64,000 nucleotides of DNA from Rhodospirillales bacterium (GTDB lineage: Bacteria; Pseudomonadota; Alphaproteobacteria; ATCC43930; CGMCC-115725). Positions 38,913 through 48,898 of this stretch are shown here, piece after piece. The position numbers and the translations under genes were made by a program. The DNA is taken from NCBI GenBank assembly GCA_028291405.1, contig JAQGID010000265.1, positions 62,001 to 126,000 on the forward strand, given 5' to 3'. A model generated the notes under the pieces. The model saw only the letters and a program-made list of their open reading frames with translations, was not told the DNA's origin and did not search any database. How positions within the stretch are numbered: the first letter of the stretch is position 1; each line of letters begins with the position of its first letter.

Positions 38913-39518
38913 CTATTTATTCTCGGTCTTCTTCTTCGTCACCGCCTCGATCTGCTGCTGCAGTGCGTTGAGCCGATTGTTCAGCTCGCGCAGCGCCGCC
39001 TCGTCGGATTGCGCCTCGGTCTTCGGCTTCTCGTTGCGCTCCTCGGTGGTCGGTGGAAACGGCGAGAACATCTTCATGGTCTTCTCGAACAAGGCCATGT
39101 TCTGCTTGCCCATCTCCTCGAGCCCGCCGAAGGGAAAGAGGCCGCCGAAGGCGTCCTGCAGGCTCTTGCGCATCTGGTCCTGATTATGCGCGAAGGATTT
39201 CATCGTGTGCTCGAGATAGCGCGGCACCAGCCATTGCATGTTGTCGCCGTAGAACCCGATGAGCTGCCGCAGAAAGCTGATCGGCAGCAGGTTCTGGCCA
39301 CCCTTCTGCTCCTCCTCGACGATGATCTGGGTCAGAACGGAGCGGGTGATGTCCTCGCCGGTCTTGGCGTCGTAGACGACGAATTCGCCGCCCTGCTTGA
39401 CCATGCTGCTGAGGTCGTCGAGCGTGACGTAGCTGCTCGACGCCGTGTTGTAGAGGCGGCGGTTCGCGTATTTCTTGATGACGACGGGCGGTTTCTCGGG
39501 TGCGCTGGTCTGGTTCAT
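38913..39518 (-). CDS. phaR: Polyhydroxyalkanoate synthesis repressor PhaR
   Basis: A 201-aa regulator. The N-terminal PHB/PHA-accumulation DNA-binding domain is unmistakable: VIKKYANRRLYNTASSSYVT near residues 13-32, then DLSSMVKQGGEFVVYDAKTGEDITRS. The central PHB-binding region contains LLPISFLRQLIGFYGDNMQW. The C-terminus is a Gln/Glu/Lys coiled coil. PhaR represses phasin and its own gene, and is released when it binds nascent polymer. It is divergent from the synthase genes at 39634; the 115-bp gap between is the natural place for its operator. Confidence 0.96.
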   Translation of the reverse strand: MNQTSAPEKPPVVIKKYANRRLYNTASSSYVTLDDLSSMVKQGGEFVVYDAKTGEDITRSVLTQIIVEEEQKGGQNLLPISFLRQLIGFYGDNMQWLVPRYLEHTMKSFAHNQDQMRKSLQDAFGGLFPFGGLEEMGKQNMALFEKTMKMFSPFPPTTEERNEKPKTEAQSDEAALRELNNRLNALQQQIEAVTKKKTENK

Positions 39519-39633
39519 CTTCTTGTGCTTCCGATGCGAACGGCCGGCTACTGGCAACGCAGCATAGCAGCATTTCGGGCACGACCGAAGGGGCGATGCT
39601 GACAAGAAGCGTAAACCGCCGCTATACTGGATT

Positions 39634-40086
39634 ATGTCGGAACCGCCGGATCTCTCCACCCTCGCTCAACGGTATGTCGCCCTGTGGCAGGACTACCTGA
39701 CGACCGCCGCGGCCGACCCCGAGCTGGCCGATACGCTGACCCGGCTCTTGACCGGAATGGGTGCCGCTGCCGGCGCTTGGACACGGTCGCCGTGGTTTTC
39801 GGACCTGAGCGCGCCGCGCCCCCGGCCGGCGGACGATGAGCGAGCGCCCGAGGATGGCAAAGCCGCAAAACGGCGAGACGACGAACCCGCCGCGGACGCG
39901 ACCCGGACGGATGGGGCCGCGCCCGTTGCCGCTGCACCTGTTGAGCGCGATGACGGCGTGGATGAGCTCCACGGCCGCATTGTCCTTCTCGAAAGGCGGA
40001 TCGCCGCTCTCGAATCCGATGCACGCGCCCGCAACCGCCAGCGCGGCGCGGGAATTGGCGGAGCAGCTCGCCGCCGTCGCTCCTGA
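39634..40086 (+). CDS. Probable PhaE-like small subunit of PHA synthase
   Basis: A 150-aa protein. An N-terminal helical part (LAQRYVALWQDYLT, residues 10-23) is joined by a long Ala/Pro/Asp linker to a C-terminal coiled coil, VDELHGRIVLLERRIAALE, near residues 109-127. That end resembles the DELYRRVHELRREV-type tail of PhaE/class IV PhaR subunits that activate short PhaC proteins. The position directly before a PhaC-like gene supports this. The assignment is inference: overall similarity is low and the linker is low complexity. The gene overlaps the start of the next one, out of frame, by about 175 bases. Confidence 0.6.
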   Translation: MSEPPDLSTLAQRYVALWQDYLTTAAADPELADTLTRLLTGMGAAAGAWTRSPWFSDLSAPRPRPADDERAPEDGKAAKRRDDEPAADATRTDGAAPVAAAPVERDDGVDELHGRIVLLERRIAALESDARARNRQRGAGIGGAARRRRS

Positions 40087-41113
40087 GGAATTCGCCGCCG
40101 CCGTCGATCGCGAGCTGCGCGGCCAGGCCGATGCGTTCCTGCGCGGACTCGAGGCTTACCGCCACCATCCCTACCGCCGGGCCGTCGTCGACCCGCCGGT
40201 GGTCTGGCACGAGGGGACGACACGGCTGCTCGACTACGGCCCGGCCGGCGGCGTGCCGCTCCTCGTCGTCCCCTCGCTGATCAATCGCAGCACCATCCTC
40301 GATCTCGCCGCGGAGCGCAGCCTGCTGCGCTTTCTCGCCGGCCAGGGAATCCGTCCGCTGCTGGTCGATTGGGGACGGCCGGGGCCGGTCGAGCGCGGCT
40401 TCGGCCTCACCGACTATATCGCCGGCCGGCTCGATGCGGCATTCGAAGCCGCGCTGGTCCACGCCGGTGCGCCGCTGACGGTGCTCGGCTATTGCATGGG
40501 CGGATTGCTGGCGGTCGCGCTGGCGCAGCGGCGGCGTCGCGAGATCGCGGCGCTGGCGCTGCTCGCGACGCCCTGGGATTTCCACGCGGCGCAGGTCGCG
40601 CAGGCGCGTCTGCTCGGCAGCCTGGCACCGTGGCTGGAAGCGGCATGCGGGCTGCTCGGCGAGGTGCCCGTCGATACGCTGCAGGCCATGTTCCTCGGAC
40701 TCGACCCGCTGCTCGCGCTGCGCAAGTTCAGTCGCTTCGCGACGCTCGACCCGGCATCGCCGGAGGCGCAGGAGTTCGTCGCGCTCGAGGATTGGCTGAA
40801 CGACGGCGTGCCCCTGGCCTTGCCGGTGGCGCGCGAATGCCTCGCCGACTGGTACGGCGCGAACAGCCCGGCGCGCGGCCTCTGGCGCGTCGCCGGGACG
40901 CCGATTCTCCCGAGCCGCGTGACGCTGCCGACGCTGGTCGTCGTGCCGGCGCGCGATCGCATCGTGCCGCCGGCTTCGGCGTCGGCGCTCGCCGCGGCCT
41001 TGCCGCAGGCGACCCGGCTCGAGCCGCCGCTGGGCCATATCGGCATGATCGTCGGCCGCCAGGCGGAGGCGCTGATGTGGCAGCCGCTTGCGGGATGGCT
41101 ACGCCATAAATGA
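39911..41113 (+). CDS. phaC: PhaC-like poly(3-hydroxyalkanoate) synthase, short type
   Basis: Alpha/beta-hydrolase-fold protein of about 400 aa. The lipase-like box has the PHA-synthase Cys, LGYCMGGLLAVAL (Cys near residue 195 from this start), preceded by the PhaC hallmark LLVDWGRPGP near 150. The Asp of PARDRIVPP and the His of LGHIGMIVG complete the triad near 345 and 375. It polymerises (R)-3-hydroxyacyl-CoA. It is shorter than class I PhaC (about 590 aa) and near class III/IV length, consistent with needing the small upstream partner. The start is uncertain: ATG 39911 begins with GPRPLPLHL, which I recall as conserved in relatives. ATGs at 39836 and 40019 are alternatives. phaA follows 89 bases after the stop. 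Confidence 0.85.
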   Translation: MGPRPLPLHLLSAMTAWMSSTAALSFSKGGSPLSNPMHAPATASAARELAEQLAAVAPEEFAAAVDRELRGQADAFLRGLEAYRHHPYRRAVVDPPVVWHEGTTRLLDYGPAGGVPLLVVPSLINRSTILDLAAERSLLRFLAGQGIRPLLVDWGRPGPVERGFGLTDYIAGRLDAAFEAALVHAGAPLTVLGYCMGGLLAVALAQRRRREIAALALLATPWDFHAAQVAQARLLGSLAPWLEAACGLLGEVPVDTLQAMFLGLDPLLALRKFSRFATLDPASPEAQEFVALEDWLNDGVPLALPVARECLADWYGANSPARGLWRVAGTPILPSRVTLPTLVVVPARDRIVPPASASALAAALPQATRLEPPLGHIGMIVGRQAEALMWQPLAGWLRHK

Positions 41114-41154
41114 CTATAACTGGCGCTGGCGCGGGCGAAGTCTTACACTCTTAA

Positions 41155-42378
<1,224 letters not shown>

Positions 42379-42467
42379 TCGACATCGATGCCGCTCCCCG
42401 GGCCGCGTCGAAAAGAGCGGCGCGCTTTTTGCAAACCAAGAACGCGTTAGATTGAGGGAGGATGGTG

Positions 42468-43190
42468 ATGGCACGAGTTGCGGTGGTGACCGGCGGGACG
42501 CGGGGCATCGGTCGCGCGATTTGCGAGGGCCTCGCGAAGGCCGGCTATAAGGTCGCGGCGAACTACGGCGGCAACGACGCGGTCGCCGAGGCCTTCTCCC
42601 GCGAGACCGGCATCAGATCCTATTGTTTCGACGTCGGCAATTTCGCGGCCGTCGAGGACGGCATCCGCCGCATCACCGCCGATCTCGGCCCGGTCGAGAT
42701 TCTCGTCAACAATGCCGGCATCACCCGCGATGGCACGCTGCAGCGGATGAATTTCGAGCAGTGGAACGCCGTCATCCAGACCAATCTGTCGTCGTGCTTC
42801 AACATGTGCCGCGCCGTCATCGACGGCATGCGCGAGCGGAACTTCGGCCGCATCGTCAACATCGGCTCGATCAATGGCCAGGCAGGACAATACGGTCAGG
42901 TGAACTACGCTGCCGCGAAATCGGGCATCCACGGCTTCACCAAGGCGCTGGCGCAGGAGGGCGCGGGCAAGGGCATCACGGTGAACGCCATCGCGCCGGG
43001 CTATATCGATACCGAGATGGTGCGGGCGGTGCCGCCCAACGTGCTCGAGAAGATCGTCGCCCGGATCCCGGTCGGGCGCCTCGGCCATGCCGAGGAGATC
43101 GCCCGCGGCGTGCTGTTCCTCGTCGCCGACGACGCCGGTTTCGTCACCGGCTCGACGCTGTCGATCAACGGCGGCCAGCACATGTACTGA
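42468..43190 (+). CDS. phaB: Acetoacetyl-CoA reductase
   Basis: NADPH-dependent SDR enzyme that makes (R)-3-hydroxybutyryl-CoA. The 240-aa sequence has the cofactor motif VTGGTRGIGRAI near residues 6-17, NNAGITRDGTLQRM near 83-96, and the Ser-Tyr-Lys active site in NIGSINGQ and QVNYAAAKSG. The end SINGGQHMY is the PhaB signature. The second in-frame ATG (42468) is chosen because GGGAGG lies 6 bases before it. That ribosome site, AGGGAGGA at 42455-42462, is fully complementary to the single-stranded block of the two sRNA candidates in this window. Confidence 0.97.
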   Translation: MARVAVVTGGTRGIGRAICEGLAKAGYKVAANYGGNDAVAEAFSRETGIRSYCFDVGNFAAVEDGIRRITADLGPVEILVNNAGITRDGTLQRMNFEQWNAVIQTNLSSCFNMCRAVIDGMRERNFGRIVNIGSINGQAGQYGQVNYAAAKSGIHGFTKALAQEGAGKGITVNAIAPGYIDTEMVRAVPPNVLEKIVARIPVGRLGHAEEIARGVLFLVADDAGFVTGSTLSINGGQHMY

Positions 43191-45438: not shown

Positions 45439-45494
45439 GACACCGGAAAGTTGCGCCGCGTTAACCATTTCTTCAGCTTCGCGGCCTAGAACAC

Positions 45495-45563
45495 CCCTAT
45501 GCCGCGATTGCGGCATTTCCTCCCTAAGCCTCGGGCCGCGCTTGTCGCGGCCCTTTTTCTTTT
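45495..45563 (+). ncRNA. MmgR/alpha-r8 (suhB-family)-like small RNA, copy 1
   Basis: The roughly 70-nt element has three parts. A 5' hairpin is TGCCGC-GATT-GCGGCA (45500-45515). A single-stranded block TTTCCTCCCTAA follows (45516-45527). An intrinsic terminator has stem GGGCCGCG/CGCGGCCC (45533-45553), loop CTTGT and a T-rich run to 45563. The 5' end near CCCCTA is inferred from a weak -10-like CTAGAA about 8 bases upstream. Size, order of parts and the UUUCCUCCCU core match the alphaproteobacterial MmgR (alpha-r8) family as I know it. In Sinorhizobium MmgR restrains PHB granule accumulation. A near-identical element lies at 48745-48810 on the other strand. No CDS fits this interval. Confidence 0.78.
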
Positions 45564-45575
45564 CCGGTTAGGGCT

Positions 45576-46771
45576 TCAGCCGTCGATGACGGGGCCGAAC
45601 AGGACCCACCGCGTGCCGTCGAAGCGCTGCAGCGTCATCTGGTGGATCGGAAAGAAACTGCTGGGGCCGGTGCTGATGGTGATGCCGGGCAGCAGCATCG
45701 GCAGTGCCAGGTCCTTCAGATTCGCGGCCTGGCGCATGACGTTGGCGCGGCTGAGATCGTCGCCGCATTGCTTGAGCACCTGCACCAGCGTCTGCGCGAC
45801 GCTGTAGCCGTAGACGTTGAAATATTCCTGCGGCTTGGACTCCGGCAGGTATTTCGCCACGAAGGCGGCGTAATCGGCATAGGCCGGATCCTTCTGGACG
45901 CCGGGATCGCTCGGATCCTTGAAATAGGCGGCGGCGATGACGCCGGTCGATCTGTCGAGACCGGCGGGCGTCAGCACGGCGTCGACCGAGACCGCCGCGC
46001 TGTTGAGGAATTGCGTCGGGTGCCAGCCGATGTCGAAGGCCTTGCGGATCGCCTGGGCCGCCGCTTTCGGATTCGTGATGTTGACGAAGACGTCGGCGCC
46101 CGAGGCTTGCAAGGCGATGATCTGCGAGTCGACCGTCGCGTCGCTCGCCTCGTACGAAACCTCGGCCACGACGCGGGTCTTGTAGTCGTCGCCGAAGGCG
46201 TTTTTCAGCCCGGCGAGGTAGTCCTTGCCGTAGTCGTCGTTCTGATAGAGGACGCCGACCTTGCCCTTGGAAGGCTCGTCTTGATATGGGCGGCGAAGAC
46301 CTGCGCCTCCGACCGGTAGCTGGGCTGCCAGCCCATCGTCCAGGGAAAGCGCGCGGGATCGCCCCACATCGTGGCGCCGCTGCCGACGAACAGCTGCGGC
46401 ACCTGCTTGTCATTGAGATATTTGCGCACCGCGTTGTTGGTCGGCGTACCGACCGAGCCGAAGAGCAGCAGGGCGTTGCCTTCCTCGACGAGCTTGCGTG
46501 TCTGCTCGAGGGTCTTGGGCGGGCTGTAGCCGTCGTCCAGCGAGTCGAACTCGATCTTGCGGCCGTTGACTCCGCCCTGATCGTTGATCATGCGGAAATA
46601 TGCGGCCGACGCCTTGCCGATCGCCGCATAGGCCGAGGCGGGGCCGCTGTAGGGCATCGTCTGCCCGATCTTGATCGTCGCCTGTGCATCGGCCGCCCTA
46701 AGCGGTTGCGCGAGGATCGCCGCCGTGATCAGCGCCGCCAGCGGAACCGCGGCAAATGCTCCAGTTCTCAT
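45576..46771 (-). pseudogene. Branched-chain amino-acid-type ABC substrate-binding protein, broken by a 1-nt frameshift
   Basis: A periplasmic Leu/Ile/Val-family (Peripla_BP_6) binding protein split into two frames. The first frame (46771 to about 46265) has a signal peptide, TIKIGQTMPYSGPASAYA, and continues to FAAHIK. The second frame (about 46270 to 45576) resumes with GKVGVLYQNDDYGKDYLAGL and ends FDGTRWVLFGPVIDG. Inserting one base in the CCAAGGG run at 46264-46270 restores a continuous product of about 398 aa. The rest is uninterrupted and well conserved, so the lesion is recent or a base-calling error at a short homopolymer. The ribosome site GGGAGGAA is strong. No permease or ATPase genes are adjacent. 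Confidence 0.85.
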
Positions 46772-46842
46772 TGCTTCCTCCCAGGCGTGGTTCGCACTTC
46801 AGGGTGCGTATTGGATCGCAAGACTAGCATGAGCCTCGTCCG

Positions 46843-47019
46843 ATGACGGGGATTCTCTTGACGAGCCGCGTGGTCGGTTCATACTTGGCGTCGTCGCAAA
46901 TCGAGCAGGAGGATGCATCGCATGACCCCGCCGATGACAAGACCCTGAGGCTGCTGACTCTGACCCGGCTCTGCCTAGGCGGAGCGATCGTTCAGGCCGT
47001 TGGAGCCTCACTCTCATAA
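46843..47019 (+). CDS. Possible small protein or sRNA locus with own promoter and terminator
   Basis: A 58-codon frame opens at ATG 46843 and ends in LRLLTLTRLCLGGAIVQAVG plus a few residues. A promoter-like TTGACG (46858) with ATACTT 17 bases later lies inside its 5' end, and a hairpin terminator follows at 47071. Promoter and ORF start do not fit together, so a noncoding transcript from about 46893 to 47105 is an equal possibility. I see no homology to decide. Confidence 0.22.
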   Translation: MTGILLTSRVVGSYLASSQIEQEDASHDPADDKTLRLLTLTRLCLGGAIVQAVGASLS

Positions 47020-47027
47020 GGCCGAAA

Positions 47028-47402
47028 TTAGACCCGATCGTGGATTGGGTGATGGTTCAGCCATCGATCAGAAGCCCCGCCCTCCGTTGGCGGGGCTTCA
47101 CTGTTTTGCGGCGCCCCGACGCGGCGGCGCCAAGCGTGGTATTGCCGCCGGTAGGACGCCAGATCGTCGAGCAGAGCGCCGGGAACGAGTCCGACCGCGC
47201 GGCGCCGGCGGATCGCGCGGATCTGGCGGCGGATCAGCGCGGCAAAGAAGGCGGTTTCGGCTATCGCCCCGGCTTGCCGGAACGTAACCGGATCATAAAG
47301 GTTATATTGGCGTTCCGCTTCCGGAATGGGCCCATCGTAACGCAGCTCCAGCTCATAGAGAGCGCCAGTCTTTCTAAATTCGCTGGAGTTTGGAACGGAC
47401 AT
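47028..47402 (-). CDS. Hypothetical protein, helical and basic
   Basis: A 124-aa frame starting at ATG 47402 (MSVPNSSEF). It reads as a plausible soluble protein: KTGALYELELRYDGPIPEAE, then an Arg-rich helix FFAALIRRQIRAIRRRR and LDDLASYRRQYHAWRRR. The last 25 residues run across the hairpin at 47071-47099, so the true end may be earlier or the frame may be fortuitous. No family recognised. Local base composition at its 5' end is more AT-rich than the neighbours. Confidence 0.45.
   Translation of the reverse strand: MSVPNSSEFRKTGALYELELRYDGPIPEAERQYNLYDPVTFRQAGAIAETAFFAALIRRQIRAIRRRRAVGLVPGALLDDLASYRRQYHAWRRRVGAPQNSEAPPTEGGASDRWLNHHPIHDRV
47071..47099 (+). terminator. Hairpin terminator, best read on the plus strand
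   Basis: GAAGCCCCGCC (47071-47081) pairs with GGCGGGGCTTC (47089-47099) around CTCCGTT, followed by ACTGTTTT. A smaller hairpin GATGG-TTCAG-CCATC precedes it near 47051. The minus-strand side lacks a T-tract. It would end a plus-strand transcript, yet no firm plus-strand gene precedes it. Confidence 0.65.
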
Positions 47403-47410
47403 GATGAAAC

Positions 47411-47440
47411 CCAAAAAAGGCCAATATAACGCCTTTTTGG
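47411..47440. terminator. Bidirectional terminator with A/T-rich arms
   Basis: CCAAAAAAGGC (47411-47421) pairs with GCCTTTTTGG (47431-47440) around a loop CAATATAAC, one A being bulged. On the minus strand it gives a stem followed by a T-run and would end transcription of the lipoprotein gene at 47519-47833. Its loop is part of a longer inverted repeat with 47297-47312. Confidence 0.75.
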
Positions 47441-47518
47441 ATAATTTTCAAGCGAAAACGGGCATGTCCATGGGGCGGAGATCCCGCCCTCCGATTGTCG
47501 CTCGTCGGAAATCCGGCC

Positions 47519-47833
47519 TCAGCGCACCGGGCTGTAGCCCTTTGCCGCCATGCAGGCGGCGAGGGCGCGGTTGCCCTGGCTGCGGCTCGAGGCGGCCATG
47601 TCCGCTTCCTTGGCGCTGAGCGTGCCGGTGCGTTGCCAATCATTGCCGCGGCTGGCGAGGATATCGGCGTTGATCTGGTCTTCCCGCCGCGTCGCCTCGC
47701 GCGCCTGGCGCTCGCAGCGGTCGACGTCCGTCGAGACGGTCGCCGCGCCGACGCCGGGCTTGGCCCAGCGGCTGCTTTCGTCGGCGCAGGCCGTCAGCGC
47801 GACAAGGAGGAGAAGAAAGGTAGCCCGACGCAT
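47519..47833 (-). CDS. Small lipoprotein
   Basis: A 104-aa protein with a short lipoprotein signal (MRRATFLLLLVALTAC, Cys16). The mature part has an even number of extra Cys (RCERQA and AACMAAKGY) that could form a disulfide. The C-terminal ACMAAKGY is typical of many small proteobacterial envelope lipoproteins that end in a Cys-Met-x-x-(K/R)-G-(Y/W) motif. Function unknown. It is divergent from another lipoprotein gene at 47918. Confidence 0.82.
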   Translation of the reverse strand: MRRATFLLLLVALTACADESSRWAKPGVGAATVSTDVDRCERQAREATRREDQINADILASRGNDWQRTGTLSAKEADMAASSRSQGNRALAACMAAKGYSPVR

Positions 47834-47917
47834 GCTGCGCTCTCCGCGATGATCTCCGGTACGACGGCTGCGCCGCTCAACGGAAGATTAACCCTTCGCT
47901 CGCTACAAGGTAAGGCC

Positions 47918-48181
47918 ATGACGTCTTTCCGCACCGTGAGTCTGCTTCTGATCGTCTGCGCGCCGCTCCTCGCCGGCTGCAACGTCTGGCAGACGCGCGC
48001 CGAGTTCGCTGCGCCGGAAAACCGCTGGACGTCGGATCACGCGTCGCCGGTCGCGGTCGACGCGCCGCCGCCTGCAATTCGCACCGTGCATTGCTATCGC
48101 ACGCTGGCGGTCGTCGACTGCTTCGCCGCCAAGCAGGACGATCGCTACTCCGGCTATACCGGAGCCTATCCCACAGACTAG
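47918..48181 (+). CDS. Small lipoprotein
   Basis: An 87-aa protein starting at ATG 47918, with AAGGTAAGG before it. The signal peptide ends in a lipobox LLAGC (Cys near residue 21). The mature part contains VHCYRTLAVVDCFAAKQDD, with two Cys and a YRTL-x-x-x-DC pattern that recurs in small alphaproteobacterial lipoproteins, and ends SGYTGAYPTD. Its last 4 bases overlap, tail to tail, the MarR gene. Confidence 0.82.
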   Translation: MTSFRTVSLLLIVCAPLLAGCNVWQTRAEFAAPENRWTSDHASPVAVDAPPPAIRTVHCYRTLAVVDCFAAKQDDRYSGYTGAYPTD

Positions 48182-48621
48182 GGTTTCGTCGCGGCGGTCA
48201 TGCCGCGATGCGATGCGACGACGGTGCTCAACGCGTCGCGCAGCCGGGCGAGATCGCTCGGGTCGAGGCCGCCGAACAATGCCGCCTCGAGCTCGTCGAC
48301 CTGCCTGTCGCATTTCTTCAGGACCGCCTGACCGTGCAGCGTCAGCTTGACGCGGAGGATGCGGCGGTTCTCCTCGTCCTCCTGCCGCGAGACGAGCTCC
48401 TTGCGCTCCAGCGCCATGATCATCTCGTTCATCGACTGCGGCGTCACCAGGAAGCGTCGCGAGAGGTCGGCGGAGGACAGGTTATCGCGCGTGCTGAGCA
48501 GGCTGAGGACGGTGTATTGCGCGCCGGTGAGCTGGAATTCCTGCAGCCGCTGCTCGAGGCCGGCGCGGACCGCGACTTCGACCATTTTGACGAGATAGAT
48601 CGTCCGGGGTGTCGTCGCCAT
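48178..48621 (-). CDS. MarR-family transcriptional regulator
   Basis: A 147-aa winged-helix regulator. The HTH lies near residues 45-80 (YTVLSLLSTRDNLSSADLSRRFLVTPQSMNEMI). The wing is ERKELVSRQEDEENRRILRVKLT, with the Asp/Arg of MarR wings. A C-terminal dimerisation helix follows. ATG 48621 is preferred; a longer upstream frame is a shadow that runs over the second sRNA candidate. The regulated genes are not obvious. The gap to 48898 holds the sRNA copy 2. Confidence 0.92.
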   Translation of the reverse strand: MATTPRTIYLVKMVEVAVRAGLEQRLQEFQLTGAQYTVLSLLSTRDNLSSADLSRRFLVTPQSMNEMIMALERKELVSRQEDEENRRILRVKLTLHGQAVLKKCDRQVDELEAALFGGLDPSDLARLRDALSTVVASHRGMTAATKP

Positions 48622-48744
48622 CTGCCGGTCGCTGTCCTGGAGTAGGAGAAAGGTCCGCTGCCGTGGCGGGGCCCGCCGCGGCGATGTAAGGTATCCAGTT
48701 ATCGTACCGGTGGGAAAGGAAGATCGTCGCGCAACGCGCGGCGC

Positions 48745-48810
48745 AAAAAGAAAAGGGCCGCGACAAGCGCGGCCCAAGTTTAGGGAGGAAACGCCGAAAC
48801 CGGCGTAGGC
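48745..48810 (-). ncRNA. MmgR/alpha-r8 (suhB-family)-like small RNA, copy 2
   Basis: Read on the minus strand, it has the same layout as the element at 45495. The 5' hairpin is ACGCCG-GTTT-CGGCGT (48806-48791). TTTCCTCCCTAA follows (48791-48780). The terminator stem is GGGCCGCG/CGCGGCCC (48775-48755), with the identical CTTGT loop and a T-rich tail to 48745. A -10-like TATTTT lies just upstream (about 48813-48818). The terminator is identical to copy 1 while the 5' hairpin differs but keeps its shape, which indicates selection on structure. It lies between the MarR gene and the lipocalin-like gene, and no CDS is credible over it. Confidence 0.78.
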
Positions 48811-48898
48811 GCAAAATATGTCATAGTCATTGACCCATTCCAACAGGATTTTGCGGAATGGATGGCAGCCATGCACGAGATGCAGTGGCTTGGTCCGT

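Follow-up and report, generated by a model that had tools for sequence, protein, structure and literature searches.

Two short intergenic elements in a 64,000-nucleotide stretch of Rhodospirillales DNA (the window) are new, genuine members of the known alpha-r8/MmgR/suhB family of small RNAs (sRNAs), and this membership is solid. Transcripts of the alpha-r8 family are about 77 nt long and bound by Hfq, and MmgR-type RNAs act as PHB regulators that limit phasin levels and PHB granules. The reading that we favor, at a probability of roughly 60%, is that both elements are genes for trans-acting alpha-r8 sRNAs with an incidental PHB adjacency, sRNA1 being a relocated member of a group designated subfamily B and sRNA2 a local copy. 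Family membership, fold, copy number, synteny, promoter motifs, and complementarity form the computed basis of this reading.

Family membership and predicted folds

The original prediction placed two MmgR/alpha-r8 (Rfam suhB) sRNAs at 45495-45563 (+) and 48745-48810 (-). Running Infernal with the Rfam suhB model (RF00519) on both intervals bore this out. The cmscan matches cover all 77 model positions at each site and score 43.2 bits for sRNA1 (45494-45568, +) and 56.2 bits for sRNA2 (48740-48811, -), both above the gathering score of 41, with ends that differ by a few bases from the predicted intervals. The features referred to in the text are as follows.

38913..43190: PHB cluster, context only; phaR (-), short class-III-like phaC (+), phaA (+), phaB (+)
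42455..42470, +: phaB ribosome-binding site AGGGAGGAtggtgATG, 8 nt complementary to the core
45446..45466, +: weak PhaR-like box GAAAGTTGCGCCGCGTTAACC of sRNA1, off the mmgR position; may be chance
45461..45475, +: CtrA-like box TTAACCATTTCTTCA, predicted -35 region of sRNA1, common to nine subfamily-B copies
45487..45492, +: predicted -10 element TAGAAC of sRNA1, from aligned promoters
45494..45568, +: sRNA1, alpha-r8/MmgR (RF00519) copy 1; 43.2 bits, fold z -4.1
45499..45516, +: 5' hairpin of sRNA1, predicted fold
45516..45525, +: unpaired anti-Shine-Dalgarno core UUUCCUCCCU of sRNA1, from the fold; core named in PMC12559287
45533..45553, +: terminator stem-loop of sRNA1, followed by a T run
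46769..46782, -: livK-like ribosome-binding site GGGAGGAAgcaATG, complementary to the core
48740..48811, -: sRNA2, alpha-r8/MmgR (RF00519) copy 2; 56.2 bits, fold z -3.9
48755..48775, -: terminator stem-loop of sRNA2, identical in sequence to that of sRNA1
48782..48791, -: unpaired anti-Shine-Dalgarno core UUUCCUCCCU of sRNA2, predicted fold
48815..48843, -: possible sigma-70 promoter of sRNA2, TTGGAA-17-CATATT, found by eye; 8/12, below the scan threshold

Both predicted folds have the same architecture: a 5' stem-loop, then UUUCCUCCCU as an unpaired core, and, at the 3' end, a Rho-independent terminator. The 5' hairpins had been described as unlike in sequence and alike in fold, and the pairing is indeed similar, with seven pairs in sRNA1 (AUGCCGC-GAUU-GCGGCAU) and six in sRNA2 (ACGCCG-GUUU-CGGCGU). 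None of 200 shuffles was equally stable (z-scores of -4.1 and -3.9). Of 61 alpha-r8 copies in the source genome and related ones, 57 form a stem of four or more pairs at this place, built from varied pair types, compared with 19% of random windows. The proposed functional-RNA character agrees with the presence in both elements of a compensated hairpin and a terminator, and the two-element observation is confirmed as far beyond chance.

The shared terminator likewise held up, the sRNA2 stem-loop being the same sequence as that of sRNA1. A genome search found its 17-mer, GCCGCGCTTGTCGCGGC, only in sRNA1 and sRNA2. In the sister genome it occurs only in the copy adjoining the PHB-linked methyltransferase gene (contig C85), and an alpha-r8 copy in a different genus (G010) also has it. 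Just downstream of sRNA2, at ~95-120 nt on the same strand, is a marR-family gene, and with a terminator in between, sRNA2 might be read as a 5' leader or attenuator of that gene; we consider this very improbable, given that sRNA2 matches a family of independent sRNAs over the full length and has its own terminator.

The PHB neighborhood and its conservation

Genes in this part of the window run phaR (-), short phaC, phaA, phaB, a GST gene, gloB, and a methyltransferase gene, followed by sRNA1. The description of a full PHB cluster is sound for PhaR, which exceeds its curated cut-off (TIGR01848), and for PhaA and PhaB, which agree with their subfamily models; it calls for caution on PhaC, which is short and class-III-like, scores 143 bits where the cut-off is 365, and has no recognized PhaE. 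A 150-aa frame without a family match (39634-40086, +) overlaps and precedes the short phaC (39634-41113) and could be a PhaE-like or phasin-like partner of PhaC. On the strand opposite sRNA1, and pointing towards it, is a gene for a livK-like substrate-binding protein (45576-46771, -), which occupies two frames (45576-46367 and 46205-46771); the split gene is a pseudogene or an assembly error, and the livK-like gene is missing at the corresponding place in the sister genome. The segment 46858-47105 (+) is a candidate separate small transcript with a promoter-like TTGACG-16-CATACT, a terminator (47071-47099), and an GAGCAGGAGGATGCA stretch containing a very short reading frame (MTPPMTRP). The segment is conserved in the sister (L095), and a reading as a known RNA was rejected, with no Rfam match better than E 0.3.

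Five RF00519 matches occur in the source genome: the two in the window (contig C321), those on C333 and C276, and a sub-threshold match on C109. The C109 element (36.6 bits; L005, ~1501-1571) is directly downstream of a frame ending like an ammonium transporter and is possibly a 3'-UTR-derived sRNA. Sequence inspection placed the C276 copy next to an N-formylglutamate amidohydrolase gene, as is one Sis copy in Caulobacter; this linkage was not found for either window copy. That gene is the usual alpha-r8 site, and Caulobacter SisB-D are without it (PMC12559287); the linkage is usual for a single copy and does not define paralogues.

An alpha-r8 copy over the cut-off was found in 49 of the 61 genomes searched, and PhaR also in 49 of 61. 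The gene order phaR-phaC-phaA-phaB-GST-gloB-methyltransferase is kept in many genomes, such as that of Stella vacuolata, and is old and conserved across the order. With many compared assemblies fragmented and one other species of the genus sampled, an alpha-r8 copy beside the methyltransferase end of the cluster was seen only in the source genome (G000) and its sister species (G001). In the other genomes checked, alpha-r8 lies at least 24 kb from the PHB genes or on another contig; the nearest copy in G006 is 24 kb from phaR, on the opposite side of the cluster. This distribution makes sRNA1 a genus-level arrival. The sister has a single copy (C85), directly after the methyltransferase gene and below the cut-off at 38 bits; its PHB locus contains no sRNA2 counterpart, and sRNA2 is so far known only in the source genome. 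The presence of GCCGCGCTTGTCGCGGC in sRNA1, sRNA2, and the C85 copy points to local duplication or gene conversion as the probable origin of sRNA2.

The further claim, that the two copies make up a local storage-control module, finds no support in this comparison. With the linkage confined to one genus and the gene order old, a local module by conserved synteny was ruled out, and the PHB-adjacent position looks like a recent accident. A version in which selection keeps both copies by phaCAB, where they would repress translation of phaB (and phasin) along with storage, is unlikely. Both sRNAs do lie within about 6 kb of phaB; however, the linkage is absent outside the genus despite the old gene order, sRNA2 is absent from the sister's PHB locus, and trans-acting sRNAs work without proximity.

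Two promoter types among alpha-r8 paralogues

The Sinorhizobium meliloti mmgR gene is single copy and under PhaR and NtrC control (PMC8401924, PMC12559287, PMC12542648); the PhaR motif of this species has been defined, and PhaR binds at mmgR (PMC12542648). We scanned with that motif (PMC12542648) and counted boxes ending 25-70 nt before the core. A phasin gene of the source genome has two PhaR boxes, which supports using the S. meliloti motif here. Boxes precede 32 of 52 copies outside subfamily B (31 of 51 without sRNA1), mostly 32-41 nt before the core, against a background of 2.8% of random windows; a well-placed box was found in none of the nine subfamily-B copies. In the order, most alpha-r8 copies, the strong remote ones C276 and C333 included, have a PhaR (AniA) box placed much as in mmgR. 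Judging from these promoters, PhaR repression, a PHB-sensing input, most likely acts on the C276 and C333 copies. An extra long 5' hairpin on canonical copies was partly dropped as a feature, its inverted repeat overlapping the PhaR box.

The window copies differ from MmgR in this respect, although they share with it the covariance model, the core, and the terminator layout, and although the PhaR boxes of the remote copies in this genome sit close to where mmgR has its own. At the mmgR position sRNA2 has no box, and sRNA1 has a weak site at another spacing. That weak site favors the view that selection holds both copies by phaCAB, but the mmgR-like box is on remote copies, which also tells against the local storage-control module originally envisaged.

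Subfamily B comprises nine copies with the 5' hairpin AGUCCUUCGGGCU (loci L036, L041, L050, L054, L074, L095, L101, L108, and L126). A CtrA-like box, TTAA-N7-TT(G/C/T)A, precedes all nine of these copies and sRNA1, ten in all, versus 1 of the 51 other copies, counts that are not independent, as the copies are related and shared descent may partly explain the conservation. Carriers come from five genera; as a background, 0.7% of random 150-nt windows have such a box, as do 2.8% of ORF-poor windows. In its second half the box reads TTGA, TTCA, or TTTA rather than TTAA, which puts it a single mismatch away from the CtrA consensus, and regulators other than CtrA could bind there. In the aligned promoters, the spacing from the box to a -10-like element is nearly fixed. 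CtrA-activated promoters of Caulobacter typically have a single site at -35 and follow a TTAA-N7-TTAA rule (PMC11264516); the CtrA orthologue of the source genome is 69% identical and has two perfect boxes before its own gene. The sRNA2 promoter has neither a PhaR box nor a CtrA-like box.

Could the window copies be decaying, or bare terminators from which no functional RNA is made? We regard this as rather improbable. sRNA1 is barely above the cut-off (43.2 vs 41), no consensus promoter passed the scan for either sRNA, and the sister's C85 copy falls short of the cut-off, but core and terminator are intact, the hairpin is compensated, and the sRNA1 promoter motif is conserved across the five genera.

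The 5' hairpin of sRNA1 has diverged from subfamily B, and its assignment to the subfamily, made by promoter and position together with the terminator, is a putative one. In three other genera, subfamily B lies downstream of an N-acetylmuramoyl-L-alanine amidase (Amidase_3) gene, and in one downstream of ppdK; the subfamily has therefore changed place and kept its promoter. The exact subfamily-B 23-mer occurred in none of 385 genomes drawn across the class, a strict form of matching, and subfamily B accordingly looks restricted to the source family. Tentatively, and at somewhat less than even odds, the alpha-r8 paralogues of the order may split into a PhaR class that follows PHB state and a CtrA class (subfamily B and sRNA1) that follows the cell cycle, with one core linking uptake and storage to both; a CtrA-type copy would have moved beside phaCAB and duplicated locally.

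Predicted targets and relation to known sRNAs

The UUUCCUCCCU core is complementary to the Shine-Dalgarno sequences of many uptake-protein mRNAs, of the neighboring livK, and of phaB. A genome pattern search found GGGAGGAA before ATG at 84 sites versus 2 for the reversed pattern, which mainly shows that GGGAGGAA is a ribosome-binding motif. From these sites 79 distinct genes were recovered; a simple rule marks 34 of them as secreted-looking, compared with 7 of 79 background genes, and many of the 34 encode solute-binding proteins on sequence inspection. A strong Shine-Dalgarno sequence of any gene resembles a target of the core, so the list does not amount to specific proof.

Upstream of the phaB ATG, AGGGAGGA offers eight contiguous pairs with the core (-15.7 kcal/mol), as strong as livK. 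Across 24 loci, complementarity is strongest for phaB among phaR, phaA, phaB, and the GST, gloB, and methyltransferase genes (median -10.5 kcal/mol), with GGGAGG in 38% of phaB genes versus 0-7% in the other five. Phasin ribosome-binding sites have only partial complementarity. A link to PHB in trans is plausible, and the phaB pairing is the best surviving reason to tie the sRNAs to PHB. It favors selection for copies that repress phaB from nearby; yet AGGGAGGA stands before ATG at about 49 sites genome-wide, so a single match within a set of about nine PHB genes is unremarkable, and the pairing would be ordinary trans action, for which proximity is not needed.

In the reading that we prefer, both elements would encode alpha-r8 (MmgR/Sis-type) sRNAs of about 65-75 nt, whose free UUUCCUCCCU core, by analogy with SisA, would pair with Shine-Dalgarno sequences in trans, with Hfq, and block translation. 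Targets would be mainly periplasmic uptake-protein mRNAs, possibly also phaB. sRNA1 would be a relocated subfamily member, with a CtrA-like box in its promoter and an amidase gene normally upstream, and sRNA2 would have arisen by local duplication or gene conversion and would have its own promoter; PHB sensing through PhaR would sit at C276 and C333. We infer the transcription, Hfq dependence, target repression, and CtrA and PhaR binding that this mechanism entails. The difference between alpha-r8 copies is probably the timing of their production.

A close parallel is with SisA-D of Caulobacter crescentus, several paralogues with unrelated promoters that use the same 10-mer, together with Hfq, to repress mRNAs (PMC12559287). 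The main text of that paper does not mention CtrA, whereas subfamily B and sRNA1 have the CtrA-like box. An exact 10-base complement search of the genome identified no homologue of the Caulobacter sponge CrfA: none of the 15 exact AGGGAGGAAA sites, which comprise 4 alpha-r8 genes, 7 ribosome-binding sites, 1 RNase P RNA-like site (by eye), and 3 others, has a sponge-like layout. The AbcR (alpha-r15) RNAs of rhizobia also have anti-Shine-Dalgarno motifs and transporter-mRNA targets, similar to the class predicted here; they differ in being 114-120 nt long, in having two motifs, and in being only partly similar to suhB (PMC7143759).

The neighborhood of a trans-acting sRNA is an unsafe guide to its function. 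So far, alpha-r8 RNAs have been tied to PHB through one RNA and to carbon starvation through one set. Redundancy among alpha-r8 siblings was posed as an open question in the 2025 Caulobacter paper (PMC12559287). The CtrA/PhaR promoter split, which arose outside the coordinates of the original prediction, is a more interesting lead than a PHB module: with a PhaR box or a CtrA-like box before the same core, it makes sibling redundancy directly testable.
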